A DNA stretch of 22,278 bases from a virus. Shown here piece by piece: positions 1 through 21,130 of this stretch. The DNA lies in the IMG/VR virus record IMGVR_UViG_3300028876_000011, positions 1 through 22,278 of that record; one strand, given 5' to 3'. Position numbers and translations under genes: made by a program. Every line of letters begins with the position of its first letter. The first letter of the stretch is position 1. The notes below the pieces were generated by a model. It searched no databases. It had not been told where the DNA came from and was given only the letters and a program-made list of their open reading frames with translations.

Positions 1-1452
1 CGCGCCAAGAAATGAGTCGGCATTCGCAATCGAGAAGCCGCCGTCAATCGAAACACCGAGTAATGCCTGAGAACTGTTGCACTGTATCACCAGACTATTA
101 TTCGCGCCGGGTGTTATGGGGCCAGCCTGAAGCGTGGTGCCAGTTCCTTTATCCCCGGACAATTGATCGTAGACAGGCGTGCCGGCGCTGTCACTGAACG
201 CGATAACCTGACTGGATGAGTACTGGGCCGAGATGGAGAAGGTATGCCCCGTCCCCACGGTCGGGCTTATTTTATAAAAAAGGGCGGTAGAATTATCAAC
301 GCTGGCATCAACAGGCGTTGTCCCGGCCTTTACATATGTATTACCTTTATTGTCCGTTACGGTCGCATTACTAAAGGCCCCTGGATTATTAAAGGAAACG
401 CAGGCGACTATCAGTTTCGCCCCGGTTGTATTGAGCGCCGCTGTCGTTCCGCCCGAGGAACCAGCGACGTCCGCGTTGGCGACAACGGCCCATGTGGATG
501 AGGCACCTGATATCGTGACACCCGGCGATGTCGCGTTGCTCGACAGGTCGTTGGTGATACCGAGAGTGCAACCCGTTCCGACACCAGCGGGGGTCGTGAA
601 CCTGGCGGTCCATTTTCCGCCTGAAGCCGAGAAGTTCGAAGGCGTGGCTGATCCCGAGCAACTGCCACCCCACGTCGCCGAAGAGATCGAGGATGGTGTC
701 GTGCCGCTGTAAGTGCCACTCCCTGGAATGGTTATCCCGCCCACATAACCATTGGCGAGCGCCGTGAAGGTCATTCCGCTGTTGGAAAGGGTCACATTCG
801 GCGAGGTCGCCCCGGCACCAAGGTTGTTCGTGATCGTGATGTTGCAGGCCGATCCGCCCGCGCCTGATACCGGAGTGCTGAAGTTGGCCGACCACGCGAG
901 GCTACCCGCCGTGAACCCGGTGACGGTCGAAGACCCGGCGCAGCCGGTGCCGCCCCATGTCGCGGTGCTGATGGAGGTCGGCGTGACCCCCGTGTAAGCG
1001 CCGCTCCCGGCTATCGTGGAACCACCGATAGCGCCGTTGGCGAGCGTCGGGAAAGTGATGGCGTTACCGGTCACGGTCACGTTGGGCGAGGTCGCCCCGG
1101 CCCCCAGATTGTCCGTGATCGAGATGTTGCACGATCCGCCCGTGCCCGACCCCGGAGGGGCGAAGGCCGCCGACCACGTCCCGCTACTCGCGCTGAAACC
1201 CCCGACAGCCGAAGACCCGGCGCAGCCGGTGCCGCCCCAGGTCGCGGTGCTGATGGAGGTCGGCGTGGTGCCAACATAAGTTCCACCCCCGGCTATCGAC
1301 GCCCCACCGATGGAACCGCCGGTGGATAGTGACGAAAAGGCGATGGAATGGGCACCGGCAATCGAATGCGCCATGCCTGGTCCCGGCCCCATGCCGCCTT
1401 GAGCGAACGCGGGGCCGGCAAGAAGGATGAAAAGGAAAGCAAGGGCTTTCAT
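1..1452 (-). CDS. Exported Cys-repeat protein, tail-operon end (3' end outside window)
   Basis: The frame starts with ATG at 1452 and stays open for 484 codons to the left edge, so the C-terminus is missing. It overlaps the upstream stop as TGATG. Residues 1-18 form a clear Sec signal peptide (Met-Lys, hydrophobic core, Ala-Phe-Ala before Gln-Gly-Gly). Residues about 45-315 hold three copies of a 94-95 residue module built around Thr-Trp-Gly-Gly, a Cys soon after it, a Trp-Ser/Thr-Ala strand, a second Cys before Ile-Thr-(D/N)-(N/D)-Leu, and Ser-Pro-Asn/Gly-Val-Thr. Residues about 340-484 form a different beta-rich domain with Ala-Cys-Val, Thr-Asp-Asn-Lys-Gly-Asn-Thr and Ile-Gln-Cys. This type of domain is common in phage and environmental surface proteins. 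Eight Cys are visible, an even number, which suits disulfides in the periplasm or outside the cell. An adhesin or receptor-binding accessory is the best guess; the function is not established. Confidence 0.85.
   Translation of the reverse strand, partial: MKALAFLFILLAGPAFAQGGMGPGPGMAHSIAGAHSIAFSSLSTGGSIGGASIAGGGTYVGTTPTSISTATWGGTGCAGSSAVGGFSASSGTWSAAFAPPGSGTGGSCNISITDNLGAGATSPNVTVTGNAITFPTLANGAIGGSTIAGSGAYTGVTPTSISTATWGGTGCAGSSTVTGFTAGSLAWSANFSTPVSGAGGSACNITITNNLGAGATSPNVTLSNSGMTFTALANGYVGGITIPGSGTYSGTTPSSISSATWGGSCSGSATPSNFSASGGKWTARFTTPAGVGTGCTLGITNDLSSNATSPGVTISGASSTWAVVANADVAGSSGGTTAALNTTGAKLIVACVSFNNPGAFSNATVTDNKGNTYVKAGTTPVDASVDNSTALFYKISPTVGTGHTFSISAQYSSSQVIAFSDSAGTPVYDQLSGDKGTGTTLQAGPITPGANNSLVIQCNSSQALLGVSIDGGFSIANADSFLGA
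500..1312 (-). repeat. Three tandem 282-285 bp coding repeats (94-95 aa)
   Basis: The first two copies share long identical DNA stretches. The segment starting gaagacccggcgcagccgg occurs at 1211 and 929, and gtcgcggtgctgatggaggt recurs with the same 282-base offset. The third copy (about 500-747) is 285 bases further on and more diverged. Each copy encodes one Cys pair. The closeness of copies one and two suggests recent duplication and possible copy-number variation between relatives. Confidence 0.85.
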
Positions 1453-2396
1453 CAACGCACCACCCGCCAGTTCAGGGTGATCGCCGCCGATGGGGTTATC
1501 GAGGCGCTCGTGTTGTTGCAAACCTTGAAGTTGGCGTTGTTGGCTGACGGATACACGATGATCGTCAACATTCCGTTGACCGTTGGCGCGTAACCCGTCA
1601 CCGCCGTGGGATCTCCGTTGAAGCCCCATGTAATCGTGTCGGTCGTCGCGATACCCGACCCGGCGCTCACCACGGCGGCGGCGCAAGCGCCCGACGCGAT
1701 GGAGGATGTCCCCAGGACGGCCGTGCTGTTCGCGACGGTAACCGCGCCGCCACCCGTGGACGTGGCGCTGCCGCTGACGCAGTTATAAAGCGCCCCGGAA
1801 TTGTAAACGCAGGACAGGAAACTCACCGGCCCGAGCGTGGTTTGAGACGCGATGCCCCCGCCAAGGGTCACGCCACCCGGCTTCGTCAGTGTCGCGGTCA
1901 CACCAGAGGCGGTGACCAGCATGAACGACTGACCGGCGGTCAGCGTCGGCAGCGTCGCCGTGCCGTTGGCGGTCATGGTGTCCTGACCGCCGACATTCCA
2001 TGAACTGAACGACCCGGCGTGCGTGTTGTCCGTGACCTTCATGCCGACAATCGCGTTGCCGCTACCCCCGTCCGTCACCACGAATGTGGATAAAGGGAAT
2101 GTGAGGGTCGTCGCGGTGACCGAGGTCGCCGTATCGGTGACCGTCAGCGAGCCGCCGCCACCACCGGAGCCGCACGCTGTCGTGACGACATCCCCGCTTG
2201 CATTCCGAGCCAGACAAACCGTTGGCGTCCCGGAGGGCACGGCGGACATCTTCACGGTGCCGGTGGCGTTCAGGATTGGCGTCGTGACCTGGCTCGCCGC
2301 CACCGGGCCGCAGTCCGCCGGATTGGCGGGACAGGCCGCGCGGGCCGCGCCAGCCAGCAGCGACAGGAGCGCCGCCAGGATCAGACTTTTTTGCAC
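1452..2396 (-). CDS. Exported Cys-rich protein of the tail operon
   Basis: The start is GTG at 2396, preceded by GGAGG about seven bases upstream (inside the preceding gene). The protein has 314 residues. Residues 1-20 are a typical signal peptide (Gln-Lys, then a Leu/Ala core, ending Ala-Arg-Ala before Ala-Cys-Pro). The mature part has eight Cys, including CPANPADC near its N-terminus and a Cys-Val-Tyr-Asn...Tyr-Asn-Cys pair. A Gly5 linker near residue 75 separates a short N-terminal part from a beta-rich middle. The last 80 residues (Ser-Gly-Ala-Cys ... Phe-Lys-Val-Cys-Asn ... Leu-Asn-Trp-Arg-Val) resemble a C-terminal module I associate with proteins of tail-fibre loci. It lies downstream of the fibre gene and overlaps the next exported gene by one base. 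It may be a secreted or virion-associated accessory protein; the function is unknown. Confidence 0.85.
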   Translation of the reverse strand: MQKSLILAALLSLLAGAARAACPANPADCGPVAASQVTTPILNATGTVKMSAVPSGTPTVCLARNASGDVVTTACGSGGGGGSLTVTDTATSVTATTLTFPLSTFVVTDGGSGNAIVGMKVTDNTHAGSFSSWNVGGQDTMTANGTATLPTLTAGQSFMLVTASGVTATLTKPGGVTLGGGIASQTTLGPVSFLSCVYNSGALYNCVSGSATSTGGGAVTVANSTAVLGTSSIASGACAAAVVSAGSGIATTDTITWGFNGDPTAVTGYAPTVNGMLTIIVYPSANNANFKVCNNTSASITPSAAITLNWRVVR

Positions 2397-2578
2397 AGGA
2401 AACCTCCGTTCCAGAACAGAGCGCCCGTGGCCAGTCCCGCGTCGCTGGTCGGCAAACCACTCAGATAACTTTGAATGGCGGCTCCCAGCCCCGATGCCGG
2501 GACGGCGGCATTGGCTTTGTTCTGTATCGCCAATATATCGGTGGCGTAGATTGTTTCTCCAGGCGCGATGATCCCCAT
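2381..2578 (-). CDS. Small tail-locus protein, 65 aa
   Basis: ATG at 2578 has GGAGG seven bases upstream, and the frame ends at 2381, overlapping the next start by 16 bases. The 65-residue product contains Ile-Tyr-Ala-Thr-Asp-Ile-Leu-Ala-Ile-Gln-Asn-Lys and ends with LPTSDAGLATGALFWNGG-Phe-Leu-Cys-Lys-Lys-Val. The Leu-Pro-Thr-Ser-Asp-Ala-Gly-Leu-Ala-X-Gly pattern followed by a Trp-Asn strand recurs in phage tail and fibre proteins, often near their C-termini. That suggests a small structural or fibre-associated part. I do not recognise a defined family. There is no signal peptide, unlike the gene just downstream. Confidence 0.75.
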   Translation of the reverse strand: MGIIAPGETIYATDILAIQNKANAAVPASGLGAAIQSYLSGLPTSDAGLATGALFWNGGFLCKKV

Positions 2579-2874: not shown

Positions 2875-5193
2875 TCAGGTTGGTTGTGCCGCGCGGCTCT
2901 CCAACTGGACGATCCGCCGGATGGCGACCGCCAGATCGTCAGTGGTTTTGTTTAGCTTATCGTTCAGTTCGCGCAACGCATTGAGCGCGACGAACAACAG
3001 CGGCTTCTCGTCCACCGATAGCTGGCCGGGAAAGCGCGCGTCTGGCACTTTTTCTTCAGCGAAGGGGTCCATCGGTTGTGGCGGCGTATGATACACCGCT
3101 TCCGGCACCAGCTTCTCCAGTTGCTGGGCGATCAGCCCGACGCGGCGCTTGCCATCGTCAGAGGTGCCGCCCAGGCCGTTGTAGAGATAACTGACCGGCG
3201 TCAGTCGCATGATGACATCGAGGCCGCGCCGCCAGGGTGCGACCTCCTTCTTGACCCGCTCATCCGACGCGCTGTCACCGGGCATGAACGCGCCGCGGCA
3301 ATGGACATTGCCCGCGCCATCGGTCCATGACATGGCGTTGTTGCCGCCGAACGCCGTGTTGTTCGCCCGATAGACCAGTGACCCATCGTTGCTCCAGAAC
3401 AACCCCCAGCCATCGGCCTGAAACCGGATGGCGCGTCCAGGGCTGTTGCCATAGATCACGAAATCGGCCCCCGCCGCCTCGCCGATGAAGATGCCCTGCG
3501 TGACATGGAAGTTGCCGTTGGGTTCCAGCATCATGGTCCGGCTGCTGCCCCAGTACCACTCATGCGCGTAAGCGGCGCGCCCGCCACCGCTGAGAATGAA
3601 GTTGGCCCCGCCACTAAAGTCGGTGCTGCCACAGATCGTGGTGTAGGAATTGTTGACCCGGCAGTTGATGCTGTTGTCGCCGGCGGCGACGTAGAGTCGG
3701 CTGGCGACGTTACAGGTTCCGCCGATGCCGACGTTGCGCCCGACGCTGAGATCATAACCGGCGACGAGGTGGATCGCGGCACCGATGCTGCCGGTCATAT
3801 ACAGACCGCCCCGGTTGCCATCGCCGATGGGGTTCTCCGTCACCATCCCGCCGTAATAAATAATCGGGTTACCAGACCCATCCATCTGGCCAAAGCGCAG
3901 ACCGCCATCGGCATATATTCCGGCGGCGTAAGCGGCGTGGGTATCCCACACGCAGAATGATGGGTTGTTCCCGTCGCCACACGAGATGACCCGCGCGCCG
4001 TTGGTGAAGATGCGACCGGCGGTCACCAGCCCGCCGCTCATCGACACCTCGGCGGTCCTGCGACTGATGGAAATCGGCGCGTCGATGTAAGTCCCGGCAT
4101 CGTTGCATCGGCCCAGTAAGAAATCGGAACCGACGTTGCTGCCGTCCTGGTTGTCGGTCGCGCCACCGCCAAATTGCATGATCCAGCGGGTAAAGCCGCT
4201 GCTGTAGCCGACGACCTGGTTGACCTGGCTGTAGCCGTTGGGGCGGTTCAGGGTCAGCGTCGCCGACTGACCCGGCTGGGCGGCGATGGACATTCCGTTG
4301 GTGGCGGTGACGTTGCCATTGGCGGTCAGCGATCCCACCGTGGCGGCACCCGTGATCGAGAACGCACCGCCCGCCGAGAACGCGCCGGTCACCGAAAGCG
4401 TGCCGGTCATGCTCCAGCCGGTGTAGCCATTCTCGGCGTTCATGTTCAGCGTCGTCGTGCCAAAGCCGATGTAGCCCGCGCGCACACCGTTGGCCTTGTG
4501 GAAGGCCACGTAGCCAGCGTTGGTGGCGTCGCCGACGTTCAATACCGAGTAGCCGACCGACGGCATACGCGCCGTCACGTTCGCCGCCTGGAGCGTCCCG
4601 GTGACGGCGAGCGTGCCGGTGATGGCGGTGGCGGCGGCGTTCAGGGTGATGCCGGTCAGCGTCATGCCCGTGCGGGTGACGGTGAGCCAGTTGCTGGACA
4701 CGGTGTAGGGATCGTTCATCGCGCGGCCCCAGAGGGTGTTGCCGGTCGAGAGGAAGTCCCACGCCTTGCTGTCCGACGCGCCCGACTGTTCGCGCATACT
4801 GAGGATCGCGCCGCCCCCGGTGGCCGTCGCGTAGAACCCCCTGGCGGTGATGTTGGCCCCGGCGACGGAGATGTTACCCGCGTTATCGACCCACAGCGTC
4901 CGTTCCGCTGGCGTCTCGTTGTAGACTTTGGTTTCACCCAGGAAATTCAGGCGCGCGGTCGAACCCGCCGAGTTCTTTAGGACCGTCGTGCGATTCAGTT
5001 TGTTCGGGCTGCCGGCGGTATAGGTGCCGATGCCCCATTCCGATTGCGTACCGTCACTCATGACGTAAAAACATTGCGCGCCGCTCGCGAACCAAAAGCC
5101 GAACGGCAGACGCCCCGACGTGGGGCCAAGCAGATTGCAATCCGCCGTCGTTCCGGGCGCGTTGCACATCTCAAGGATCAGATTGCCGAGCAT
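2875..5193 (-). CDS. Tail fibre with C-terminal S74 autoprocessing chaperone
   Basis: I chose ATG at 5193 (772 residues) because it forms a TGATG overlap with the upstream stop and has AAGGAG eight bases before it. An upstream in-frame ATG at 5223 would add ten residues and lacks these signals. The N-terminus (Met-Leu-Gly-Asn-Leu-Ile-Leu-Glu ... Trp-Gly-Ile-Gly-Thr-Tyr ... Leu-Asn-Arg-Thr-Thr-Val-Leu) is the kind used for tail attachment. The centre is a long beta-rich Gly/Thr/Ala shaft with repeated Val-Thr-Gly motifs. The C-terminal 130 residues form an S74 intramolecular chaperone domain: SDERVKKEV places Ser643 and Lys648 five apart, the spacing of the Ser-Lys dyad in endosialidase-type chaperones, followed by Gly-Leu-Ile-Ala-Gln-Gln-Leu-Glu and a C-terminal helix. 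In this family the domain helps trimer folding and then cleaves itself off. It probably recognises the host surface. Confidence 0.9.
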   Translation of the reverse strand: MLGNLILEMCNAPGTTADCNLLGPTSGRLPFGFWFASGAQCFYVMSDGTQSEWGIGTYTAGSPNKLNRTTVLKNSAGSTARLNFLGETKVYNETPAERTLWVDNAGNISVAGANITARGFYATATGGGAILSMREQSGASDSKAWDFLSTGNTLWGRAMNDPYTVSSNWLTVTRTGMTLTGITLNAAATAITGTLAVTGTLQAANVTARMPSVGYSVLNVGDATNAGYVAFHKANGVRAGYIGFGTTTLNMNAENGYTGWSMTGTLSVTGAFSAGGAFSITGAATVGSLTANGNVTATNGMSIAAQPGQSATLTLNRPNGYSQVNQVVGYSSGFTRWIMQFGGGATDNQDGSNVGSDFLLGRCNDAGTYIDAPISISRRTAEVSMSGGLVTAGRIFTNGARVISCGDGNNPSFCVWDTHAAYAAGIYADGGLRFGQMDGSGNPIIYYGGMVTENPIGDGNRGGLYMTGSIGAAIHLVAGYDLSVGRNVGIGGTCNVASRLYVAAGDNSINCRVNNSYTTICGSTDFSGGANFILSGGGRAAYAHEWYWGSSRTMMLEPNGNFHVTQGIFIGEAAGADFVIYGNSPGRAIRFQADGWGLFWSNDGSLVYRANNTAFGGNNAMSWTDGAGNVHCRGAFMPGDSASDERVKKEVAPWRRGLDVIMRLTPVSYLYNGLGGTSDDGKRRVGLIAQQLEKLVPEAVYHTPPQPMDPFAEEKVPDARFPGQLSVDEKPLLFVALNALRELNDKLNKTTDDLAVAIRRIVQLESRAAQPT

Positions 5194-5978
5194 CAGAGGC
5201 GCTCCTTGATACGGAATTTCCACGCGTGTCGATCATGGAATCCCGCGATATAGCTGACATCGGCGGTCACCGTGACACGACCGAACACCGCTTCTCCGCT
5301 TATCGTCGCCGAAGCGAGATCGGACACGAAAAGAATGTTGCCGCCGTAACGGGAAATCCGGTCCAGGTTCTGCGCCTCGGTCCACAGTTCGCTGTCGGTG
5401 ATGGCGTCGAACGCCACCTCCCATCGCCGTTGCTGGAACCGATACGTTGGGTATTCCTGACCGCCACGCGAGATCATTTCATCGACCGTCGAGTCCCGGC
5501 CAAATGTCGAATTCCATGTATGCCCCAGCACCGGCTGCCAGGCCGGTCCCGCGTAAGCCAGCGGCACGTTCACGAAGCCGTCCGGATTGCCCGCGTCGGT
5601 GATATCGACAACGCAATAATCAGCCTCGATGTCAGTGGGGGCCACGGCGACGACCTGGGCGTAGCCCGGACGCGGCCCGGTCACCGTGCCGCTCCAGACC
5701 AGCGTGGACGGATTGATGAACAGGCTGAACGTCACGCTCGCGCCCTGCGACAGATTGGTGCGGAACAGGCCGAACAGCCGCCAGGCCTGGCGTACCGATG
5801 TCACCCGGAAGGTCGCCCCATCGGTGGGCGTCATAACGCCAGAGACGGTCTGCCAGGCCACGGAGGCCGCGCCTGAATCGATTTGCAGATTGGTGATCGG
5901 CATCGACGGTACCGACGACCCGGCGATCAGCGCGCCCGATTTGACCAAATTGTTGATGCCAAGAACCGTGTTGCCCAT
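5193..5978 (-). CDS. Distal tail protein, 261 aa
   Basis: ATG at 5978 overlaps the upstream stop as TGATG, and its own stop overlaps the fibre start the same way, so the gene is probably translationally coupled on both sides. The product is beta-rich with no signal peptide. Visible elements include Leu-Phe-Gly-Leu-Phe-Arg-Thr-Asn near residue 70, Pro-Gly-Tyr-Ala-Gln-Val and an aromatic centre (Tyr-Arg-Phe-Gln-Gln-Arg-Arg-Trp-Glu-Val). The C-terminus is Trp-Lys-Phe-Arg-Ile-Lys-Glu-Arg-Leu. Its place between a large distal tail protein and the fibre suggests a tail-tip or fibre-connecting structural protein. I do not recognise a named family. Confidence 0.85.
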   Translation of the reverse strand: MGNTVLGINNLVKSGALIAGSSVPSMPITNLQIDSGAASVAWQTVSGVMTPTDGATFRVTSVRQAWRLFGLFRTNLSQGASVTFSLFINPSTLVWSGTVTGPRPGYAQVVAVAPTDIEADYCVVDITDAGNPDGFVNVPLAYAGPAWQPVLGHTWNSTFGRDSTVDEMISRGGQEYPTYRFQQRRWEVAFDAITDSELWTEAQNLDRISRYGGNILFVSDLASATISGEAVFGRVTVTADVSYIAGFHDRHAWKFRIKERL

Positions 5979-7799: not shown

Positions 7800-10700
7800 T
7801 CATGCCGCTATGCGAGCCGGGGCGCTCGCGTTCTGGCGCAGTTGCGTGGTGATGTTATCCACCGCCGCTTTTAGATCCGCCAGCGAGGACACCAGTTCCG
7901 CCGTCTGGGTGCGCGTCTCGACCTGGAGGACCGACGCGATGACCGTGTCGGGTGCCACGTTGGCCACCGCGCCCAGCGCCTCAAGCACCCGCTGGAAGTC
8001 GCTGACGTAGGCTTCGCCAGAGCCAAACACGGCGCGCGAAGCGTTGAGGAATGTGTCGGCGTAGCCTTGCAGTTGCTGGATCGAGGTGTAATCGCCCGCG
8101 CCAGCCGCCCCGGCGACGGCGTTGAACCGGCTGCGCGCCAGAGCGAGCTGGTCCTGCGGCGACAACGGCGAGGCGTTGGAGGTTTGCAGCCCCTGCGCGT
8201 AGGCCACCAGCGAGGTGATCGACCCCGCCGCCGTCGCCGCCGCCGCCTCGCTTTTGGCGGTGATCTCGTCGGCGTATTTCTTGACGATGGCGAGCCGCTC
8301 CTCGCCGAGCGTGACCTCCAGCAGCGACATCTGATCGGCGTAGGACCGCGACGCGGTGTAGCTGTCGCCGAACAGGCCGATCAACTGATCGCGGAAAGCC
8401 ACCCGCTGGCGTGCCGCGCTCAGATCGAAGCTGAACAGTTCCTTGTCCTGGGCGCTGGCCGATCCGGCGTTGACGCGCCGCGCGTTCAGATCCTCGTCAG
8501 CCGTGACCACGGTCTTCCACGCCGCCTCGATCTGTTCGTTATACTTCCTGATGATGGCGAGACGTTCCGCGCCAAGCGTCCGCTCCTCCAGCGCCATCTG
8601 ATCGGCGTAGGCCTGGGTGGACCGGAACGCCTCGCCGAACGAGGCGATCATGCCATCACTGAAATCCTGCCGTTCGCGGTTGGCCCGCACATCGAACGAA
8701 TAGAGTTCCTTGTTGAGGTCGTCATAAGGGCCGGCACTCTTCGTGGCGGCGTTGATGCGGATGTTGAAGTCCTCATCCGCCCTGGTCAGGCTCTTCCACG
8801 CGGCGGTGATCGCCTCGGCGTATTTCCGGACGATCTCGGCTCGCTCCGCGCCATGCACCCGCTCCATCAGGTTGATCTGATCGGCGTAGGCCTGGGTGGT
8901 GCGGTACGCCTGGCCGTAAACCTCGGCAAGCTGGTCGCCGAACTGCTGCGTCTCCCGGTTAGCCTTGATATCGAAGGCGAACAGTTCCTTGCCCCGCGCG
9001 TCGCCAGGCGTGGCGTTGGACAGCCGCACCATCAGATCCTCAAGAGCGTATCGGATCTGTTTTTCCGCCGCGATGATCTGTTCGGCGGCCTGCCTGACGA
9101 GGGCGACGCGCTCCGCTCCCAGCGTCTCCTCCAGTTGCCGCATCTGATCGGCGTAATAGGCGGTGGAGGTGAACGCGTCGCCGAACATATCGACCAGTTG
9201 TTTCTTGTAGGCCGTGCGCTGTTGGTCCGCGCCCTGATCGAAACTCGCCAGCGCGATGGCGCGCGGGTCTTCGCCGTTCGCCTGCATCCGGCGGATGCGG
9301 AGCGTGGTGTCGAAGTCGCGGATCTGGGCGTTCGCCGCATCGCGGATCTTCGCCTCGCCCGCCGCCTGGGCGGCGGTCAGTTCCTCGGTCGCCAGGCCGT
9401 ATTTCTTCGACCCCTCGACCGCCGCGTTGAACGCGTCGTTCAGTTCCTTGACCGCCGCCTCGACCGACCCGGTGGTCTTGCCGAAATTCATCAGCGTCGG
9501 GATCGTACTCTCGACCAGGGTGTGATACTCGGTGATGGCTTTCTGGAGCGTGGCGCTGTCTTCGAAGCCGCGACCTTGCAGGTATTTGTTCAGGTTCGGA
9601 TCATCGGAACTGAAACGTAACTGACTAAAACCAGAAGCAAGATCCTTGAATTTCGATGGATCCTGGAAACCATGAGGCGAGTTCGTGCCCAACTGGCCGA
9701 CCTCGCCGAGCGAAGTCAACTTCAACGCTGTCTGATCGAGATAGGTGTTCAGATTCCGCACGTCAGTCAGCGCCTGTGTGCGCTCCGCGTCGGTATCCAC
9801 GCCCTGTCCCAGTGTCTGCCCGACCTGGGCGTGGCCATCCGAGAGCGACAGCAGCGTTGACGAGAACGGCGAGGCTTTCTTGGGGCCGATGAAGCCACCC
9901 GCGCCGCCACCAAGCGTGCCGCCGATCAGACCACCGATGAGTGTGCCGACACCAGGAATGATGCTGCCAATGATCGCGCCCGCGATGGCACCCGCCGCCG
10001 CGCCAATCTCGGGCGCGTATCCGGTCGTGCCACGCGCTCCCTGGATACCTTCCCCCGCCAGACTGCCAAGCACGAAGCCGCCGCCGATACCGCCAAGAGT
10101 GCCCCCAAGCGTACTCATGCCGGGACCAGCCGCTGTCAGCGGACCACTACCGAATAAGCTACCCGCTCCACTGATAGGCGTACCAAAGATCGTACCGCCA
10201 CCCTGGACGGCGAACAGACTGCCGCCAGGGCCGCCAAGATAGCTGTTGATCGAGCCGCCGATGCCGGTCTTCAGTCCCAGCGCGTCAGCGAGGAAACCGG
10301 CACCTGATGTGCCGACGCTACTGAGAGAGCCGCCAATGCCGTTGGTGGAGCGGCCAGACGTATCGTCGGTCACGCGGCCACTCGCCGCGCCAGCGCCGCC
10401 ACCGAACAGGCCCGAGAGGGCGAGGTCGAGTGTCGGCTGGGTCGGGCCGACGCCAAGGTAATTCAGGAAGGGACCGACGAACGCCAGCTTGAGGAAGGCC
10501 TGCAACACTTGTTGCGCGGCCGCGGTCATCACGTTCTTCCAGTTCACGGCGGCACCCTGGCCGCTGATGAACGCCTGGGTGATCGAGTTGCCGATGGCGT
10601 CGAACGCCTGGGTGAACGCGGTGCTGAGTGAGTTGACCGACGCCTCGGTATTTTTCAGCGCCTGATTCTGGCGCATCAGATCGTCCAGCAATGCCAGCCG

Positions 10701-13700
10701 CGTGGCGGCGTCTTCTTTCTCGGCTCCGGGGGCCATGTTCTTCACGGCCTGTTCGTCCTTCAGTCTCTGAATGACGCGCTCCCGCGCGTCGGCATTCATT
10801 CCCAGAGTTTTGGTCTGAAGCTGGACGACGGCGATCTCGTCCCTGGTGGTATCGTTGGCCTTGTTGAGCGTGACCCTGGCCGCGGCGGCGGCCTGTTTCT
10901 CCATCTCAAGCGTCAACACGGCGGTCGCCTTGGTCGCGTCGTCCGAACCTTCCTTATAGACCTTGTTCGCTTCCGCGAGCGCCTTGTTGGCGATTTCCGT
11001 ATGGAATGCGGAAACCGCGCCCTTCTCCCACGACGCGGCCAAAGCATCGTTGGCGGCGGTGTCTTCCCTGATCGCGCGGACCTGAAGGTCGATCAGGGGG
11101 ACGCTGTCGTACAGTTCCTTGTTGAGCGCCGCCGCCTGTTGCGCCAGCGCGGCGCTGGCCGGATTGGCCGCCGCCGCCTGTTGGGCATATTTTAATCTGG
11201 TCGTGAGTTCCTCGGCCCGACGCGCGGGTGTGTTCGCCGCCTGTTCCGCTTCCAGTTTCCGCGTGGATTCAAGTTGCTGATCGTACAGCTTGTTTATTTG
11301 CGCCTCGGCGGCGATGCGTTTGTCGTTTTCCGGCCCAAACTCCTCCCTTACCGTGACCAGGGCTTTTTCCCTGTTCGCCTGAATCTGCGCCGCTTCCGAT
11401 CCATGTTGCCACGCGAGAGCCATGCGGTTGCTGGCGTCGGTGTCTTCCTTGATTTTACGGATCTTGGCATCGAACGCCGGAATCGATTCGTAGATGTCCT
11501 TCGTCAACCTTTGATGCGACTGCTGCAACGCGACGTTGTTGGGGTCCATCCGCAACAAATCCTCGACAGCCTTTTTCTGTCGCTCAAGCGCCTCGGTGGT
11601 CCTCTGTGGCGTCCCCGCCGCCTCGGCGGCGTTTTTCCGTTCGGTGACGCGGGTCAGTTCGTCAAACTCGGAGTTTATCAACGAGATGGTGGCCGGGAGG
11701 TCTTTACTTTTCTCACCCAGTATCTGCGTCGCCTCGGCGATGGCCTTTACTCTGTTGGTGTTTTGGATGGCGGCGTCGGTGCCGCCCTTCCAGGCATCGC
11801 CCTGCGAAATCTCGGCGTCGATGTTTTGCCTGATGGAGCGGACGAGTTTCTCCGTCGCCGGAACCGCTTCAGAGAGTTGCTTGGTGAGGTCTTGCCGATA
11901 CTGGAGATAAGCCACGTTGTTCGGGTCAACCTTCAACAGATCATCGATGCCCTTGAGCGACTGGGCCAGAGCCTGTGATGTCCGTTCCGGCGTTCCGGCG
12001 GCGGCTTTGTTCGCGGCCTCTCTGGCGATGCGTAAATCGTTGATGAGTTTGATGGTCTTTTCCAGGTTCTGCCCATCGACGCCGACATGCATCGGGTCGG
12101 TTGTTCTGAACGAGTAACCAGAGGTCAGCCCCCACTTCGCCGCGAATCCCAGCATGCGCTCGCGACCAAGATCGCCCTCCGTCCCTTCCTGGTTGGTCCT
12201 GGCGTTGAAATCGACCGCGCCACCCGACGCATGCTTGCTTGGCTGACCGGTGCCCCTGACGGTGGCGTAGGGCCGGTAGCTGGACATCTCGATGATCCGG
12301 TAACCGGTGTCCTCCAGGTCTTTGACGAATCCCTCGAAAGCGGGGGCGAGATCTTTCCGCACCGTGTAATCCACCCCGCTGCGCGTGCGGAGCGTGACCA
12401 TTTCGTCTGGCGTGGCTCTGCTGGAGAGAGTTGACGTTGAGCGATTCCCGGTGCCGCCGATCCCGCTGGTGTAAAGACTGGCTGGTAATCCGCCTGGAAA
12501 CAGCGGCGAGATGCCGCGCGTCACGAATTCTCCGAGCGTGGGACCGCCTCTCTTCGCCACCTCGTTATTGTAGTCGCGCAGTTTTTCCACCACGGCGGCG
12601 ATGGCGTTCTCAATCGTCCCGAGTATCCGCACGACGGGAGAACCCATCTGTTCCATGAAGGATTTGCCGCCCTGCCCCGCCACGGTGAACGCCTTGTTCA
12701 GTCGTTCGCCCGCCCTTTCAAAGTCGGTCACCGATTTCGTGGTGTTTTCCAGCGCCGCGCGTTGCCGGGTCAGATACAGCGTGAACGCGTCGTTGATCTT
12801 CCCCGCGAGTTCCAGATCATGGATGCTTTCAACGAGTTTCGTGTCGAACCCATCCAGCCGCCCGATGAGGGCTTCCGCCGCCTTCGACGGCGAGGTCATG
12901 GATTCGGCGAACCGTTTCGACGCCGCCGGGATATCCTCGCCCAGCGCGAGCGATAGTTTCTCGATATCCTGGGCGAGGGCGACGATGTCGGTTCGATTGC
13001 CCTTGAAATCCATCGCCTTGACGAGCGCGTTTGAGGCGGTGCGCGCGTCCTCGGTCGAGAGCGACGTGGTCCGCGCCAGGATCTTCGCCGCCTCCTCGGC
13101 TTCCGTCGCCATTTCCTTGTAATCGACGCGCGAACCGGACAGGGACTGTTCCAGTCTGCCGACACGCGCCATGGAACTTTCCGCCGCGATGCCGACCGCC
13201 GTGATGGCTCCGGCGACGGCGGCGAAAGCCGCTATCGCCGCGCCGATTGGCGTGACCAATAACGCGAACCCCGAGCCGATCATCTTGAGCGCGCCACCGG
13301 CCATTTCCTTCATGGAAATACCCGACGCCCACATGACATCGGCGACCTGGTGACCTTGTTGGATCAAGGTAATCATGAACGGCTGGCCGGTCGCGATGCC
13401 GGAAAAGAACTGCGACATCTGCACGGTCAACTGCTGCGTCGCGAACTTCATCTGACCAACGGAAGCAGTGCCGTTCTTGACCTTTTGGTCGAGTTCCTCG
13501 TGGCTCTTGCCAGTGTTGTTGATGATGGCGACCTCTCGGTCATAGGTCGCCGCGGCCTGTTTGCGCGCGTTATCCGCCACCACCGTCTGATCGGTGTTGT
13601 GAATCTCCCATTCGCCGATCGAGGTCAGCGTGGCCCGGTATTTTTCGCCCGCGGCGAACAACCGGTCGAACCCGGCACGCTTCGCGTTGAGTTCCGCTTC

Positions 13701-15029
13701 GGTGGGGCCGGTCGCCGTATCGACGGTGACGCCGTCCCTTTTCTTGATCGCCACGACCTCGGCGTCGTAGGCGGCGGTGGTCCGTTTGATCGCCGCCGTG
13801 ATGAGGTCGCTTTCTCCCGGCAGCAACTTCTCGGCCGCCCGCAGACGTTCGATTTCCTTGTCGTATCTCTGGGTCGCGGCGGTCAGCGGATCGATGCTGG
13901 CGCGTAATTTATCCAGATCGACGTGAGCCGTGCCCAGTTCGTTGATCGCCTTGACGTTCGCGTAATACTCATCGGCCAGTTTCGCCAGTTCCGTCTCGAT
14001 CACCTTGGCGCTGGACCCCAGCTTGCCGTGATCGGCGATGACTTCCGCCATCGCGGCCTGATACTTTTGCAGCGCGGCGGTGAGCGGATTGTACTTGGCT
14101 TCCAGTTGGCCCAGTTCCGCGAAGGTTTCTTCCAGTTCCCGCTGGCGCTTCGCTTTCTCCGCGCCGTAAAGCGGGTTGGTGATGGTGAGCGTATTGTCGG
14201 TTTGACGCGCCACCGGAGCCGATCCCGGTGCCACGCGCGGGTCCAGGGTCATCTGGCTCGCCGCGATGACGCCAAGCCTCATGGTGCGGGCCGCGGCCTC
14301 GACATCGGCCATGTGCGCTTCCACGTCGCGCATGCCCTTAACCGCGTCGGAGGTGCTGTTGTACAGCCGCCTGTAGGCGTCCCCGGCCTCGTCTATCGAT
14401 ATGACTTCCTTGTCCAGGGCGAAGCCAACCTCGGCCACCGCGTTGGCGAACGCCTTTTGTTGCGCTTCCAGCGGCACCAGCTTGGCGCGCAGCCCATCGA
14501 CATCGACGGCGACTTCCTTCACCCCCTTGGACAATCGCTCCGCCGTCGTGTTCATAAACGCCATCGCGTCGGCGACATCGATGGTCCCGGCTTCCAACCG
14601 GCCCATGACGGTGATGAGTTCTTTCTCGCGCATCTCCAGTTGTTTCGTCCGCGCGATGGCCTCGTCGTCTTTGATCTTCTTGGCGATCAACAGCGTATCG
14701 ACGCCCTTGATCGCCTGGCCGACCTTGCCCAGTTCCCGCGACAGCGAGGTGTGGGCGAAGATCAGCGGGTCCATGCGGCCCAGGTAGGCGTCGGATTCCG
14801 CCTTCGCCTTGCGGAGCGCCCCCGCCGTGATCGTCAGCGCGTCGGCGGCGTCTATCCCGGCTTCCGCCGCCCGTTCGGTGGCGGCGGTGTTCTCCATGAT
14901 CTTGGCGGTGGTCTTGTCGAACTCGCGTTGCGCCGCCCGCTGCGCCGCCGCCAGTTGCGCCATGCTGAGTTCGGCCTGATCGGCATCGATAATAATCTCG
15001 GTAACGATCCGATTTGTGCTGCCGCTCAC
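7800..15029 (-). CDS. Tape measure protein with embedded M15-type peptidase
   Basis: The start is GTG at 15029, overlapping the chaperone-frame stop as GTGA, with AAGGA upstream. At 2409 residues this is one of the longer tape measures. Residues 1-530 are mostly helical/coiled. Residues about 533-780 match TMP_2-type prophage tape measures, with a hydrophobic stretch near 573-613. Residues about 871-993 look like an M15/VanY-type carboxypeptidase or L-Ala-D-Glu peptidase: Ser-Ser-Tyr-Arg-Pro-Tyr, SKHASGGAVD (His933, Asp940) and DPMHV (His981) supply the expected zinc ligands. Residues about 1007-1393 hold three 128-residue repeats, about 1536-1720 are Gly-rich with a hydrophobic GAAAGAIAGAIIGSIIPGVG segment, and about 1925-2256 hold four 89-93 residue repeats. 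The protein should set tail length, line the tube and assist DNA entry; the peptidase would locally cut peptidoglycan during injection. Confidence 0.95.
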   Translation of the reverse strand: MSGSTNRIVTEIIIDADQAELSMAQLAAAQRAAQREFDKTTAKIMENTAATERAAEAGIDAADALTITAGALRKAKAESDAYLGRMDPLIFAHTSLSRELGKVGQAIKGVDTLLIAKKIKDDEAIARTKQLEMREKELITVMGRLEAGTIDVADAMAFMNTTAERLSKGVKEVAVDVDGLRAKLVPLEAQQKAFANAVAEVGFALDKEVISIDEAGDAYRRLYNSTSDAVKGMRDVEAHMADVEAAARTMRLGVIAASQMTLDPRVAPGSAPVARQTDNTLTITNPLYGAEKAKRQRELEETFAELGQLEAKYNPLTAALQKYQAAMAEVIADHGKLGSSAKVIETELAKLADEYYANVKAINELGTAHVDLDKLRASIDPLTAATQRYDKEIERLRAAEKLLPGESDLITAAIKRTTAAYDAEVVAIKKRDGVTVDTATGPTEAELNAKRAGFDRLFAAGEKYRATLTSIGEWEIHNTDQTVVADNARKQAAATYDREVAIINNTGKSHEELDQKVKNGTASVGQMKFATQQLTVQMSQFFSGIATGQPFMITLIQQGHQVADVMWASGISMKEMAGGALKMIGSGFALLVTPIGAAIAAFAAVAGAITAVGIAAESSMARVGRLEQSLSGSRVDYKEMATEAEEAAKILARTTSLSTEDARTASNALVKAMDFKGNRTDIVALAQDIEKLSLALGEDIPAASKRFAESMTSPSKAAEALIGRLDGFDTKLVESIHDLELAGKINDAFTLYLTRQRAALENTTKSVTDFERAGERLNKAFTVAGQGGKSFMEQMGSPVVRILGTIENAIAAVVEKLRDYNNEVAKRGGPTLGEFVTRGISPLFPGGLPASLYTSGIGGTGNRSTSTLSSRATPDEMVTLRTRSGVDYTVRKDLAPAFEGFVKDLEDTGYRIIEMSSYRPYATVRGTGQPSKHASGGAVDFNARTNQEGTEGDLGRERMLGFAAKWGLTSGYSFRTTDPMHVGVDGQNLEKTIKLINDLRIAREAANKAAAGTPERTSQALAQSLKGIDDLLKVDPNNVAYLQYRQDLTKQLSEAVPATEKLVRSIRQNIDAEISQGDAWKGGTDAAIQNTNRVKAIAEATQILGEKSKDLPATISLINSEFDELTRVTERKNAAEAAGTPQRTTEALERQKKAVEDLLRMDPNNVALQQSHQRLTKDIYESIPAFDAKIRKIKEDTDASNRMALAWQHGSEAAQIQANREKALVTVREEFGPENDKRIAAEAQINKLYDQQLESTRKLEAEQAANTPARRAEELTTRLKYAQQAAAANPASAALAQQAAALNKELYDSVPLIDLQVRAIREDTAANDALAASWEKGAVSAFHTEIANKALAEANKVYKEGSDDATKATAVLTLEMEKQAAAAARVTLNKANDTTRDEIAVVQLQTKTLGMNADARERVIQRLKDEQAVKNMAPGAEKEDAATRLALLDDLMRQNQALKNTEASVNSLSTAFTQAFDAIGNSITQAFISGQGAAVNWKNVMTAAAQQVLQAFLKLAFVGPFLNYLGVGPTQPTLDLALSGLFGGGAGAASGRVTDDTSGRSTNGIGGSLSSVGTSGAGFLADALGLKTGIGGSINSYLGGPGGSLFAVQGGGTIFGTPISGAGSLFGSGPLTAAGPGMSTLGGTLGGIGGGFVLGSLAGEGIQGARGTTGYAPEIGAAAGAIAGAIIGSIIPGVGTLIGGLIGGTLGGGAGGFIGPKKASPFSSTLLSLSDGHAQVGQTLGQGVDTDAERTQALTDVRNLNTYLDQTALKLTSLGEVGQLGTNSPHGFQDPSKFKDLASGFSQLRFSSDDPNLNKYLQGRGFEDSATLQKAITEYHTLVESTIPTLMNFGKTTGSVEAAVKELNDAFNAAVEGSKKYGLATEELTAAQAAGEAKIRDAANAQIRDFDTTLRIRRMQANGEDPRAIALASFDQGADQQRTAYKKQLVDMFGDAFTSTAYYADQMRQLEETLGAERVALVRQAAEQIIAAEKQIRYALEDLMVRLSNATPGDARGKELFAFDIKANRETQQFGDQLAEVYGQAYRTTQAYADQINLMERVHGAERAEIVRKYAEAITAAWKSLTRADEDFNIRINAATKSAGPYDDLNKELYSFDVRANRERQDFSDGMIASFGEAFRSTQAYADQMALEERTLGAERLAIIRKYNEQIEAAWKTVVTADEDLNARRVNAGSASAQDKELFSFDLSAARQRVAFRDQLIGLFGDSYTASRSYADQMSLLEVTLGEERLAIVKKYADEITAKSEAAAATAAGSITSLVAYAQGLQTSNASPLSPQDQLALARSRFNAVAGAAGAGDYTSIQQLQGYADTFLNASRAVFGSGEAYVSDFQRVLEALGAVANVAPDTVIASVLQVETRTQTAELVSSLADLKAAVDNITTQLRQNASAPARIAA
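8260..9260 (-). repeat. Four tandem 267-279 bp repeats in the tape measure C-terminal part
   Basis: The phase marker ctgatcggcg occurs at 8331, 8598, 8877 and 9144, giving offsets of 267, 279 and 267 bases (89, 93 and 89 residues). Each unit reads roughly Phe-Asp-X-X-Ala-X-Arg-X-X-X-X-Phe ... Phe-Gly-X-Ala-Phe-X-Ser-Thr ... Tyr-Ala-Asp-Gln-Met ... Leu-Gly-Ala-Glu-Arg and is predicted to be helical. Changes in copy number would be expected to alter tail length. Confidence 0.85.
10850..12010 (-). repeat. Three tandem ~385 bp repeats in the tape measure centre
   Basis: Three diverged copies of about 128 residues are visible at residues about 1007-1393. Each begins Gly/Asn-Thr-Pro-X-Arg, then a helical stretch with Asp-Pro-Asn-Asn-Val-Ala (Asn-Pro-Ala-Ser-Ala-Ala in the third), Val-Pro ... 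Val/Ile-Arg-X-Ile ... Asp, and Ala-X-X-Trp-X-X-Gly. They follow directly after the peptidase domain. Similarity is clearer in protein than in DNA, so the duplication is old. Confidence 0.75.
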
Positions 15030-18674: not shown

Positions 18675-19336
18675 GCGTTGAATTCCTGAAACGGTTGCAG
18701 CATGTCGCAAATCTCTGGCGGCAGCGCCGACGTATTCGGCATCGTCATGCTGTTGTATTCTTCCTTGATGACGCCTGGGATTTCCTGCGAACGCAGGAAT
18801 CGGTCACGGCCCCAGGTGTCATTGCGGATCTTCAGCAGCGACAGGCATGCCGCCTGCAAATCGGGCGGCAAATTGTTCGGGTCGTAACCGCCGGTATAAG
18901 TGATCTCCAGGCTCATCATGGCGCTGTTCGACCAATGCCACGACCAATAAGACCGTTGCCCCTCACTGAGCCGCCACAGCCGCCCGCGGTAGGCATCAAG
19001 CTGGTAATCATCCGCGGTCAGCGGCGGATCATCATCGACCGAGCCGAACGACACGATCTCGGTCACCGGATAGCGCCGCAGGGTCAGGGGGCGGATTTCC
19101 ACCGAGACTTCCGGCAGATACCAAAAATCAGTGCCATGCCATGTCTCGCTGACCGTTTCCCTTATCAGGGTTCGATTGCAGTGCCGCTCGATGTAAACGC
19201 TGGTTTCGCGTATCCAGCGCGCCAGGCGGGCATCGTTCTCATCGCTGGTGATGCCAAGTTCCTCCTTGGCGATCTCCAGCGTCGTCAGGTCGTGCGACGC
19301 CGCCGGTTCGATCACCTCGATGACGGAAGATTTCAT
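18671..19336 (-). CDS. gp6-like head-tail connector protein
   Basis: ATG at 19336 overlaps the methyltransferase stop as ATGA. The 221-residue product has hallmarks of the phage gp6-like connector family: an N-terminal segment Thr-Thr-Leu-Glu-Ile-Ala-Lys-Glu-Glu-Leu-Gly-Ile, then Asp-Ala-Arg-Leu-Ala-Arg-Trp-Ile-Arg-Glu-Thr-Ser-Val-Tyr-Ile-Glu. A Leu-Arg-Arg-Tyr-Pro-Val-Thr-Glu-Ile segment, Tyr-Thr-Gly-Gly-Tyr and Pro-Pro-Asp-Leu-Gln-Ala-Ala-Cys follow. These proteins form a ring under the portal and link it to the tail. It starts the neck module of the operon. Confidence 0.9.
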   Translation of the reverse strand: MKSSVIEVIEPAASHDLTTLEIAKEELGITSDENDARLARWIRETSVYIERHCNRTLIRETVSETWHGTDFWYLPEVSVEIRPLTLRRYPVTEIVSFGSVDDDPPLTADDYQLDAYRGRLWRLSEGQRSYWSWHWSNSAMMSLEITYTGGYDPNNLPPDLQAACLSLLKIRNDTWGRDRFLRSQEIPGVIKEEYNSMTMPNTSALPPEICDMLQPFQEFNA

Positions 19337-20004
19337 GGCCGCGACACCCTCCGAAACGCGAACGAGGTGATCCCCTCACGGCCCAGGATCGTCTCCACGT
19401 CGCTGACCTCGCGCAGCTTCCAACCAAGCCTGTCCATGAAAATGATCAGGCCCGCCTTACTGAAGTACCAATAATGCTCATCCTTCCGATAATGTTTCGA
19501 CTTCAACACCTCGGCGGGACCAGGAAAGACCGGAAGCGAAATGAAGACGCTGTCCTCGACCTGTTCCAACAGCTTTGGAAAATCAGGGATATGCTCCAGG
19601 CTGTCCCAGAACGACATCGCCAGGCACGGCTGGCGGTAGGGGTTCCACAGCTTCTCCCGCGCCTTCAACCACGCCACACCCGCCGGGTTCACGTCATAAC
19701 CCCAGGTAAACGGTCGGGCGTTCACGAAGGCACCGCTGCCGATACCGATGTCCACCAAATGACCGGTGTAATGCCGCGCGACCAGCGCGATGCGCGCGAC
19801 GTTCAGCTTCGATCCCAGTTCGGTCTGGGCGTAGCCCTGATACTTGGCGAAGTAGGCCTCGTCATAAATATGGGTGCCGCCGGTCGCCGGGTAATAGCCG
19901 TAGCCCAGTTCCGGAAACCAGCAGAGTTCAGTCGCCAGCGTCCTGGTCAGGCAGCGCGGGAAGACCGGGAAAGGCGTGGCAAGGCACTCGCCCAGCGACG
20001 CCAT
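19333..20004 (-). CDS. Class I SAM-dependent methyltransferase
   Basis: I favour ATG at 20004 (223 residues), with GGAAAAG close upstream and a 58-base overlap with the glycosyltransferase. The frame is open further, to 20205, but that part reads as a shadow of the upstream gene; a CTG at 19950 is another option. The SAM-binding motif I is VDIGIGSGAF at residues 84-93, and Gly-Tyr-Asp-Val-Asn-Pro near 102-107 supplies the acidic residue that follows strand two. Phe-Trp-Asp-Ser-Leu-Glu-His-Ile (132-139) is motif-like for the family. An N-terminal Tyr-rich segment (Gly-Tyr-Gly-Tyr-Tyr, Tyr-Asp-Glu-Ala-Tyr-Phe) precedes it. The substrate is unknown. It lies between a glycosyltransferase and the connector, so DNA, sugar or virion protein modification are all possible. 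Confidence 0.8.
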   Translation of the reverse strand: MASLGECLATPFPVFPRCLTRTLATELCWFPELGYGYYPATGGTHIYDEAYFAKYQGYAQTELGSKLNVARIALVARHYTGHLVDIGIGSGAFVNARPFTWGYDVNPAGVAWLKAREKLWNPYRQPCLAMSFWDSLEHIPDFPKLLEQVEDSVFISLPVFPGPAEVLKSKHYRKDEHYWYFSKAGLIIFMDRLGWKLREVSDVETILGREGITSFAFRRVSRP

Positions 20005-20867
20005 TGCTTTTCCAGGTCCGGTATCAGCTTCACGCACTGGTGCCGCATATCGATGCATTGGCAGTAATCCTTTGGTGTCGCGAAACCGATCTTCGATCCG
20101 TCCATGCGCCGATCTATGATTTTCGATGGCGCGTTCATCCCACCATTGCCACCAAGCACGACGAAGGTTGGCGTCTTCATCGCTATCGCCGCCGGAACGA
20201 TCCATCCGACACCGCCAACGACCACCGCCGCGTCCCTGACCATCGCCATCAGCTGGTTCACCGTGCCCTCGCCGCGCAACCGGGCCAGGTTATGTGGCGG
20301 CGGCACACCGCCCTCGATCCATTCCGCGTTGTGCGTGTTGCTGGTGTCGGCGATGACGACCACCGCGAAGCCGCGCCGCTTGAGGTCGCCGGCGACGAAG
20401 TTGATATATTCCGGCAGCGGATTGCGCGCCTGGTTGTCCCACTCCAGCCGCCGCATCACCGGGCGCACGACGGCCAGCGGCGCGCCACCCGTGTCGAACG
20501 GACATGGACCCATATCCGGTAAATCCCAGTTGGGCGCTCTCGCTTCCGGCTTCGTCATGGGCAGCTTGCGTTCCATGGCGGCGAACACGCCATGTTCCAT
20601 TTCGAGGTGACCGTAGCCCAGCGCGATGGTGCCCAGGCCCGCCGGTAACGGGGTCCAACGCTCCGGTGGCTGGCGGCGGATGTTCTTGTTCTGGGTTCGC
20701 AGTAATCGCTCGCCGCGCACGAACTTCAGGTTGTCGATGTCGTCGTAGAATTCCGGCCACGGCGTATCGACATAAAGGGTGCGCTGTTTCGCCGCCGATT
20801 TAAGGAGGGGCCTGACGTAGATCGCGTCGCCCAGGCCCCACGGCGCTTTGATGTGTAGTGGCGTCAA
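19947..20867 (-). CDS. GT9-like glycosyltransferase
   Basis: The start is TTG at 20867, giving a TTGA overlap with the preceding stop and GGAAAG upstream. An N-terminal motif starting at residue 5 (His-Ile-Lys-Ala-Pro-Trp-Gly-Leu-Gly-Asp-Ala-Ile-Tyr) shows the start cannot be much later. The 306-residue product resembles heptosyltransferase-type GT-B enzymes: that N-terminal Gly-Asp loop, a linker, and a C-terminal part with Val-Val-Gly-Gly-Val-Gly-Trp-Ile-Val-Pro-Ala-Ala (216-227) then Pro-Thr-Phe-Val-Val-Leu-Gly-Gly-Asn-Gly-Gly, a likely nucleotide-sugar site. Three Cys cluster at 269, 271 and 278. No membrane segment is visible. It could glycosylate a virion protein or alter the host surface; the substrate is not known. 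Confidence 0.75.
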   Translation of the reverse strand: MTPLHIKAPWGLGDAIYVRPLLKSAAKQRTLYVDTPWPEFYDDIDNLKFVRGERLLRTQNKNIRRQPPERWTPLPAGLGTIALGYGHLEMEHGVFAAMERKLPMTKPEARAPNWDLPDMGPCPFDTGGAPLAVVRPVMRRLEWDNQARNPLPEYINFVAGDLKRRGFAVVVIADTSNTHNAEWIEGGVPPPHNLARLRGEGTVNQLMAMVRDAAVVVGGVGWIVPAAIAMKTPTFVVLGGNGGMNAPSKIIDRRMDGSKIGFATPKDYCQCIDMRHQCVKLIPDLEKQWRRWASALPRLSRSSRAA

Positions 20868-21130
20868 CGGGCTTTCCGTTTCGCCGCCGCTTTGCGCGGT
20901 GCTTTCTTCTCGTCGTCGTCCTCATCATCGTCGTCGTCGTCGTCGTCATCGTCTTCCGGCGCATCGGCGACCACGCGCGTTGGCTTCGTTTCGCTCAGCG
21001 CGCGCACCGCCAGACCGGCCATCTCCAGTTCGGTCGCGCGGTATTCCGATGTCTCGAATTCCTGCCCTCGCTCCACTTGCCCCTCATGATCGGCGTTGTA
21101 CCAGTCAGCGGTTGCTCTCATGAGGGGCAT
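20864..21130 (-). CDS. Small acidic protein with poly-Asp tract and basic tail
   Basis: ATG at 21130 has AGGAG eight bases upstream. The 88-residue product starts Met-Pro-Leu-Met-Arg-Ala-Thr-Ala-Asp-Trp-Tyr and has an N-terminal domain with Gly-Gln-Glu-Phe-Glu-Thr-Ser and Ala-Thr-Glu-Leu-Glu. That part resembles short uncharacterised proteins encoded near phage capsid genes. Residues 59-73 are almost all Asp/Glu (ten Asp, Glu, three Asp, Glu), followed by a Lys/Arg/Ala tail. An acidic stretch then a basic tail could bind basic surfaces and nucleic acid. Function unknown. Confidence 0.8.
   Translation of the reverse strand: MPLMRATADWYNADHEGQVERGQEFETSEYRATELEMAGLAVRALSETKPTRVVADAPEDDDDDDDDDDEDDDEKKAPRKAAAKRKAR
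20909..20955 (-). repeat. Trinucleotide repeat coding the poly-Asp tract
   Basis: On the plus strand the tract is a near-perfect run of gtc/atc triplets (for example cgtcgtcgtcgtcgtcgtca), which reads as GAC/GAT on the coding strand. Such a repeat can expand or contract in steps of one Asp without breaking the frame. Confidence 0.8.

Follow-up and report, generated by a model that had tools for sequence, protein, structure and literature searches.

A predicted exported, cysteine-paired protein in a recurrent three-gene cassette of uncultured phages

Results

The DNA analyzed here (the window) spans the whole of an IMG/VR record (22,278 bases), one end of which cuts through a minus-strand open frame that runs from an ATG at position 1452 to the contig end at position 1. 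The 484 codons of this frame, described in a sequence-only reading of the window and confirmed here, encode a putatively exported, cysteine-paired and adhesin-like protein, which we call P1 (1-1452, minus strand). The C-terminus, truncated by the contig end and sought to its left, was found in a 44.9 kb sister contig (L001), in which all 1,452 nt of the frame are 100% identical and the gene is closed (L001:8001-9569). The complete protein has 522 aa, of which the window encodes 484; only 38 residues lie beyond the window frame, and these are known from the sister contig and not from the window.

Residues 1-17 of P1 (MKALAFLFILLAGPAFA; 1402-1452, minus strand) were detected as a Sec signal peptide by a heuristic based on a charged n-region, an uncharged hydrophobic 8-mer and small residues at -3/-1. 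Signal detection and gene calls were both carried out with home-made scripts, and the background of the heuristic was 3/114 genes in 12 control loci (non-cassette or weakly related). By this heuristic, the clear signal peptide noted earlier was borne out by the charged n-region, the hydrophobic core, an AxA-type cleavage site between A17 and Q18 (followed by QGG), and conservation in the relative L025, where the corresponding stretch is MRTFLALLLSLLTGLAFA, again followed by QGG. The codon-position bias of the signal stretch is typical of coding sequence. With these features P1 is predicted to be translocated by the Sec pathway and cleaved by signal peptidase I. Directly behind the predicted cleavage site, residues 18-26 (QGGMGPGPG; 1375-1401, minus strand) form a mature N-terminus with a PGPG-type motif.

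Three homologous modules follow on the same minus strand, each with exactly one cysteine pair: module 1 at 1039-1323 (residues 44-138, 95 aa, Cys 77/108), module 2 at 754-1038 (residues 139-233, 95 aa, Cys 171/203) and module 3 at 505-753 (residues 234-316, 83 aa, Cys 265/295). The modules had been given as 94-95 residues long, and their number and single Cys pairs stand, the third module being shorter. The different domain expected after them was indeed found from residue 317 on (1-504, minus strand; residues 317-484 of 317-522), with its own pair Cys 351/458, P1 having 8 cysteines in total, two per domain. Modules 1 and 2 share 69% amino acid identity, and their alignment score of 325 against a best of 77 in 200 shuffles places the repeat far above chance. 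Their DNA, held in the sequence-only reading to be nearly identical, is in fact only 78.4% identical overall (71-78% in two blocks), and that of module 3 is 63% identical to modules 1 and 2.

The module and the C-terminal domain were folded with AF2 from separate alignments (A7 and A8), both models being of moderate confidence. For the module (pLDDT 75), the best Foldseek matches were Ig V domains (prob at most 0.99, E 0.04 or worse, TM ~0.45), and the comparison with VIA gave a Z of at most 7.2; no match of P1 to the Pfam Ig family was found, its sole Pfam score being a meaningless one to SCP2. The likeness of the modules to Ig domains is weak. The C-terminal beta-sandwich (pLDDT 70) matched predicted phage proteins in BFVD (TM ~0.6-0.77, best E 2e-7), among them several mycobacteriophage and Gordonia phage proteins that carry the annotation minor tail protein. 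As modeled, the domain shares the fold of phage minor tail proteins, which makes P1 a candidate virion protein. Homologs of this domain (L002-L008, L010) are encoded among tail genes, lack a signal peptide and begin with the domain right from the start. Comparison with the PDB gave no convincing match for the C-terminal domain, and weak matches to PBSX XepA were not taken as homology; by sequence, no solved-structure relative was found for P1 or for the P2 domain described below.

Upstream of P1 lies the gene for P2 (1452-2396, minus strand; 314 aa, 8 Cys), a fibre-like protein whose stop overlaps the start of P1. It carries a putative signal peptide of its own (VQKSLILAALLSLLAGAARA, followed by ACP) and ends in a conserved domain (WGFNGDPTAVTGY...NWRVVR; 1455-1754, minus strand), whose alignment, A9, was used as the cassette marker. 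In L001, P1 is followed by a third gene, P3, with the signal MKVLRAMKNLSPLALIVAFLTLVAPASA (followed by FFP), a DUF2341 domain and, by inspection, propeller-like and LamG-like stretches. The earlier reader had missed the signal peptides of P2 and P3. No genes other than P2 and P1 in the window, and P2, P1 and P3 in L001, score for export.

A short ORF of 65 aa (2381-2578, minus strand) overlaps the start of P2, and its C-terminal motif, PTSDAGLATGALFWNGGFLCKKV, is found again at the equivalent place in L025. It is preceded by a conventional tail fibre with a C-terminal S74 chaperone and without signal peptide (2875-5223, minus strand) and, further upstream, by the tape measure protein (7800-15029, minus strand), which marks the tail operon. 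The S74 fibre contains 10 cysteines, far more than are found in the phage's remaining virion genes without export signals. No cysteine occurs in the tape measure protein (2409 aa), which has a glycine-zipper stretch and, at residues 926-982, a weak match to an M15 D-Ala-D-Ala peptidase (Pfam E 0.0078, below cut-off).

By inspection, the L001 genome is siphovirus-like, with terminase, portal, protease, capsid and tape measure genes, and it also encodes LtfC-like, Gp80-like and LamG proteins, which are ordinary fibres without signal peptides. Between the window and L001, P2 is 99.4% identical in DNA and P1 100%, whereas the neighboring S74 fibre is only 93% identical. The simplest reading that this difference suggests is a recent exchange of the cassette end of the operon between the two phages, and the sequence that they have in common may be the reason why the window assembly stops at P1.

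To define the cassette, we required a signal-bearing P2 with the A9 domain, an adjoining signal-bearing gene with a PGPG-type N-terminus and a large signal-bearing gene, and this P2-P1-P3 arrangement is present at this locus. A search of IMG/VR with the alignment A9 of the 100-aa C-terminal domain of P2 returned 61 uncultured viral loci. A signal was detected in 55/55 P2 genes with an intact 5' end, in 56/61 of the next genes and in 36/42 of the third genes; under a stricter start rule the figures were 50/55 for P2 and 50/50 for the next gene. Upstream genes taken as controls in this survey also score in 30 of 132 cases, and many of these resemble lysis genes or additional members with export signals. 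Most P2-P1 pairs overlap (-3 nt). The contigs are viral, since major head proteins of several families, tail fibres, terminase or capsid genes adjoin the cassettes, and the GC content of the 61 loci, spanning 39-66%, suggests several host lineages. Judged from these sequences, P1 is the middle gene of a recurrent, putatively exported three-gene cassette and not a one-off.

The proteins of the cassette vary widely in composition. In L025, P2 is 49% identical, the upstream tail or head gene is a different one, and P1 has the signal, the PGPG motif, one module (against three in the window) and another C-terminal domain. Two modules and a beta-helix-like C-terminus were found in the P1 of L028, and a single module in L029 and L030, within runs of five to six signal-bearing genes. 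These runs (L029:248-7665 and its counterpart in L030) lie near a terminase-like gene and include a family starting with AG(S/A)(T/G)TVTGKDA. Behind P1 in L025, the gene at L025:3164-3973 is alpha/beta-hydrolase-like by inspection, has a possible Tat start (MLFLRRTFLEGVGGTAARFL) and matches the PHROG virion structural protein phrog_10356 (E 1e-28). Other P1 bodies or third genes contain LamG domains (L033) or beta-helices (L078, L084).

Tat-type signals were found in three loci, namely L033 (MDRRRFLKTAAG...KARA, followed by QGGMGPGP), L034 (MILPRRKLLRL...) and L044 (MHRRKFLTGAAS...). In L033 and L034 the Tat signal precedes the same mature QGGM[GM]PGPG terminus, and in L044 it belongs to the third gene, an alpha-L-fucosidase (PF01120, E 3e-31). 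This fucosidase gene (L044:5417-6406), with a textbook Tat signal, lies directly behind a PGPG-type P1. Because the swapping of one export route for another (Tat for Sec) is hard to explain otherwise, export itself appears to be the function. Among the P2 relatives, fibre-type N-termini and repeats stand right behind the signal (NLGLKLP in L098; TAASALGGTELxYVVQGG in L068/L104). As both these N-termini and the minor-tail-type C-terminal domain of P1 follow signals, virion-type domains appear to have been placed behind export signals.

The PGPG-type motif stands directly behind the cleavage site in 38/56 next genes, distributed over 19 of the 33 clusters into which the otherwise unrelated bodies fall. 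Seven contigs matched the corresponding DNA pattern (QGGM[GM]PGPG), six of which are cassettes; the seventh, L048, was rejected, its motif not being behind a signal peptide. The PGPG terminus has the appearance of a shared attachment end to which different heads can be joined. Between P2 and P1 there is a modest correlation (Spearman 0.29, 0/500 permutations), which shared descent could also produce. From this correlation, and because the P2 domain and a PGPG-type P1 are always adjacent, we infer that the C-terminal domain of P2 is the candidate docking partner of the PGPG peptide.

Proteins that fold in the periplasm are expected to have paired cysteines. Among 22 hand-picked signal-bearing proteins, 21 had an even mature cysteine count, at 1.94 Cys per 100 aa, compared with 0.49 Cys per 100 aa and 16/30 even counts in 30 genes of these phages that lack a signal. 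In the survey, cysteine counts were even in 55/55 P2 and 49/55 P1 proteins, and after a redundancy cut at 50% identity in 27/27 P2 (p 7e-9) and 46/52 P1 (p 5e-9), the tests treating proteins as independent after this identity cut only. In 52 of 55 cases the P2 domain contains two cysteines, and the counts of P3 are only weakly even (20/30). The even and enriched cysteines of its mature chain point to P1 as a disulfide-bonded extracytoplasmic protein. The export proposed in the sequence-only reading thus gains backing from the signal kept in divergent relatives, from the Tat-for-Sec swaps and from cysteine parity.

Searches outside uncultured viruses gave little. P1, P2, P3 (P0004) and a divergent P2 domain had no tblastn match in 50,697 cultured phage records, and the P2 and modular P1 proteins tested had no match in PHROGs or Pfam. 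The P2 relative of L033 aligned over 47 residues only with a protein of Pelagibacter phage HTVC008M annotated as baseplate wedge initiator, a match that was set aside. A 602-aa tail protein matches Synechococcus phage MinM1, whose tail region (L026) is without a signal-bearing gene by the heuristic. A scan of bacterial genome contigs yielded two weak matches, one in an unrelated exported protein (L011) and one by chance (TDNKGNTY, L012). Two matches of the P2 domain in 398 Pseudomonadota genomes (L042, L043) were rejected as antisense of ABC-transporter genes, and none was found in 385 + 397 further genomes from the class and order of the GcrA-bearing genome G043, which we take to be alphaproteobacterial. 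In all, the P2 domain was absent from about 1,180 sampled bacterial genomes (positive control 6/6). No description of such an exported cassette was found in the open-access literature, subscription papers and preprints being outside the scope of the search. P1 is unusual, as had been claimed, in so far as it has no match in the cultured phages searched, but it belongs to a recurrent, putatively exported cassette.

Discussion

To our knowledge, the tail proteins of tailed phages are made, folded and assembled in the cytoplasm. We read the cassette as an exported, disulfide-bonded and late-expressed set for binding receptors or glycans, and file it as an exported variant of phage receptor-binding genes. 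P1 would probably be the exported, disulfide-bonded adhesin in the middle of this late-expressed cassette, which adjoins tail and capsid genes. A surface adhesin, as suggested in the sequence-only reading, fits the domain content, with a minor-tail-type beta-sandwich, Ig-like modules, and lectin and CAZyme domains in sister genes. Our own reading assigns a fibre-like role to P2, a tip-like role to P1 and that of a large lectin, enzyme or beta-helix to P3, an assignment that we favor on balance.

P1 would be made along with the tail proteins, as its start overlaps the stop of P2, and, once exported via Sec, would have its signal removed by cleavage after Ala17; each of the three modules, like the C-terminal domain, would then form one disulfide as it folds in the oxidizing periplasm. 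We regard these two steps as well supported. The mature N-terminus (Q..PGPG) would act as a docking peptide, most likely for the C-terminal domain of P2, given that motif and domain are neighbors and that P1 bodies are swapped freely behind the motif. The three Ig-like modules would form a stalk on which the minor-tail-type domain is presented to a receptor in the envelope or a glycan on the surface.

Tailed virions assemble in the cytoplasm, and an exported fibre would therefore need to meet the virion after lysis. In the least certain step, the exported complex would join the tails when lysis mixes the periplasm with the virions, and would supply fibres whose folding is not possible in the reducing cytoplasm; alternatively, the complex would act free or on the cell surface. 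We hold such fitting at lysis to be a serious candidate, with chances somewhat short of even. Still more tentatively, a portion of the receptor-binding apparatus of tailed phages in several lineages might be put together outside the cytoplasm, from disulfide-bonded P2 fibres, exchangeable PGPG-docking P1 tips and large P3 effectors that would leave the cytoplasm by Sec or Tat and be attached to virions at lysis. The cassette would not be the phage's only receptor-binding set, since the same phage also encodes ordinary signal-less fibres.

The presence of these conventional fibres beside the cassette also fits another possible, though in our view rather doubtful, explanation, by which the exported proteins never become part of the virion and are instead secreted or released as free glycan-targeting proteins; by binding and cleaving exopolysaccharide, capsule or debris, they would let progeny diffuse away and would expose new hosts. 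The Tat-borne fucosidase, the LamG domains, the DUF2341 of P3 in the window's sister contig and the beta-helices would all suit such proteins. On the other hand, P2 and the C-terminal domain of P1 are built like virion fibres and minor tail proteins, which would be needless in a free enzyme, and an N-terminal motif common to unrelated bodies suggests a shared anchor.

Superinfection exclusion or receptor masking, in which exported proteins in the periplasm or on the surface of the infected cell block the phage's own receptor as T5 Llp or Cor do, appears improbable. Such exclusion proteins, exported and encoded beside receptor-binding genes, have been described, and Llp contains an intramolecular disulfide (PMC9586334); both export and a disulfide are predicted for P1 as well. 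However, these proteins are described as small (PMC9586334), and are lipoproteins acting alone on a protein receptor, whereas P1 is large (522 aa, about 50 kDa), belongs to a three-gene set and has no lipobox with a +1 Cys at its A17-Q18 site, which rules out a lipoprotein of the Llp/Cor type. Across the survey, just 1 P1 and 3 P2 show a lipobox-like motif, and three large exported proteins exceed what exclusion needs.

Exported morons also occur in tail operons, lambda lom being one that lies within the tail region. By this precedent, and with an integrase in two cassette contigs (G003 and G006), P1 could be a lysogenic conversion gene providing a new surface adhesin to the prophage-bearing cell, which we judge quite improbable. 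No integrase match was found in the window record (G000), the 45-kb sister (G001), G004 or G005, start-stop overlaps tie P1 to its neighbors, promoter-like sites are no more frequent in the region than expected by chance, and the P2 domain was found in none of the sampled bacterial genomes. Lom is an outer-membrane protein, whereas P1 is predicted to be soluble, modular and coupled to P2. That P1 is an ordinary cytoplasm-folded tail protein whose hydrophobic N-terminus serves assembly and merely resembles a signal peptide is very improbable, for although the C-terminal domain occurs on signal-less tail proteins, a signal is found on all intact P2 genes and nearly all next genes, Tat motifs replace Sec ones, and even cysteine counts are unexpected for cytoplasmic proteins.

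The reading of P1 as an exported adhesin of a receptor-binding set can be compared with several known systems. Minor tail proteins of the mycobacteriophage and Gordonia phage type, and a protein of Sinorhizobium phage phiN3, share the fold of the C-terminal domain; the homologs inspected are without a signal, and P1 adds the signal, the PGPG motif and three Cys-paired modules. The modules may resemble phage structural Ig-like domains (Hoc, phiCbK gp99) in being beta-sandwich repeats of about 95 aa on a virus protein, with variable copy number, but P1 differs from these in the conserved Cys pair of each module, in its predicted export and in the lack of a Pfam Ig match. In T4, a fibre gene (gp37) is followed by that of a tip protein (gp38), with a conserved attachment end and a variable receptor end. 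The cassette resembles this system in its fibre-then-tip gene order and differs from it in that gp37 and gp38 lack signal peptides and undergo assembly in the cytoplasm.

A cassette of fibre-, adhesin- and CAZyme-like proteins with export signals and paired cysteines would imply either virions finished outside the cytoplasm or surface-glycan proteins released in lytic growth, and either outcome, if true, would be new for such a domain set. The C-terminal domain of P2 and the PGPG N-terminus provide a sequence handle for candidate host-recognition cassettes missed by current phage databases.

Elsewhere in the window, between capsid-side and tail genes, inspection revealed two adjacent genes (19333-20867), one GT9/heptosyltransferase-like and the other methyltransferase-like. 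The pair resembles sugar or host-envelope enzymes and is unusual for a head-tail operon. Next to it, positions 20864-21130 encode a small protein with an aspartate run (DDDDDDDDDDEDDDEKK).
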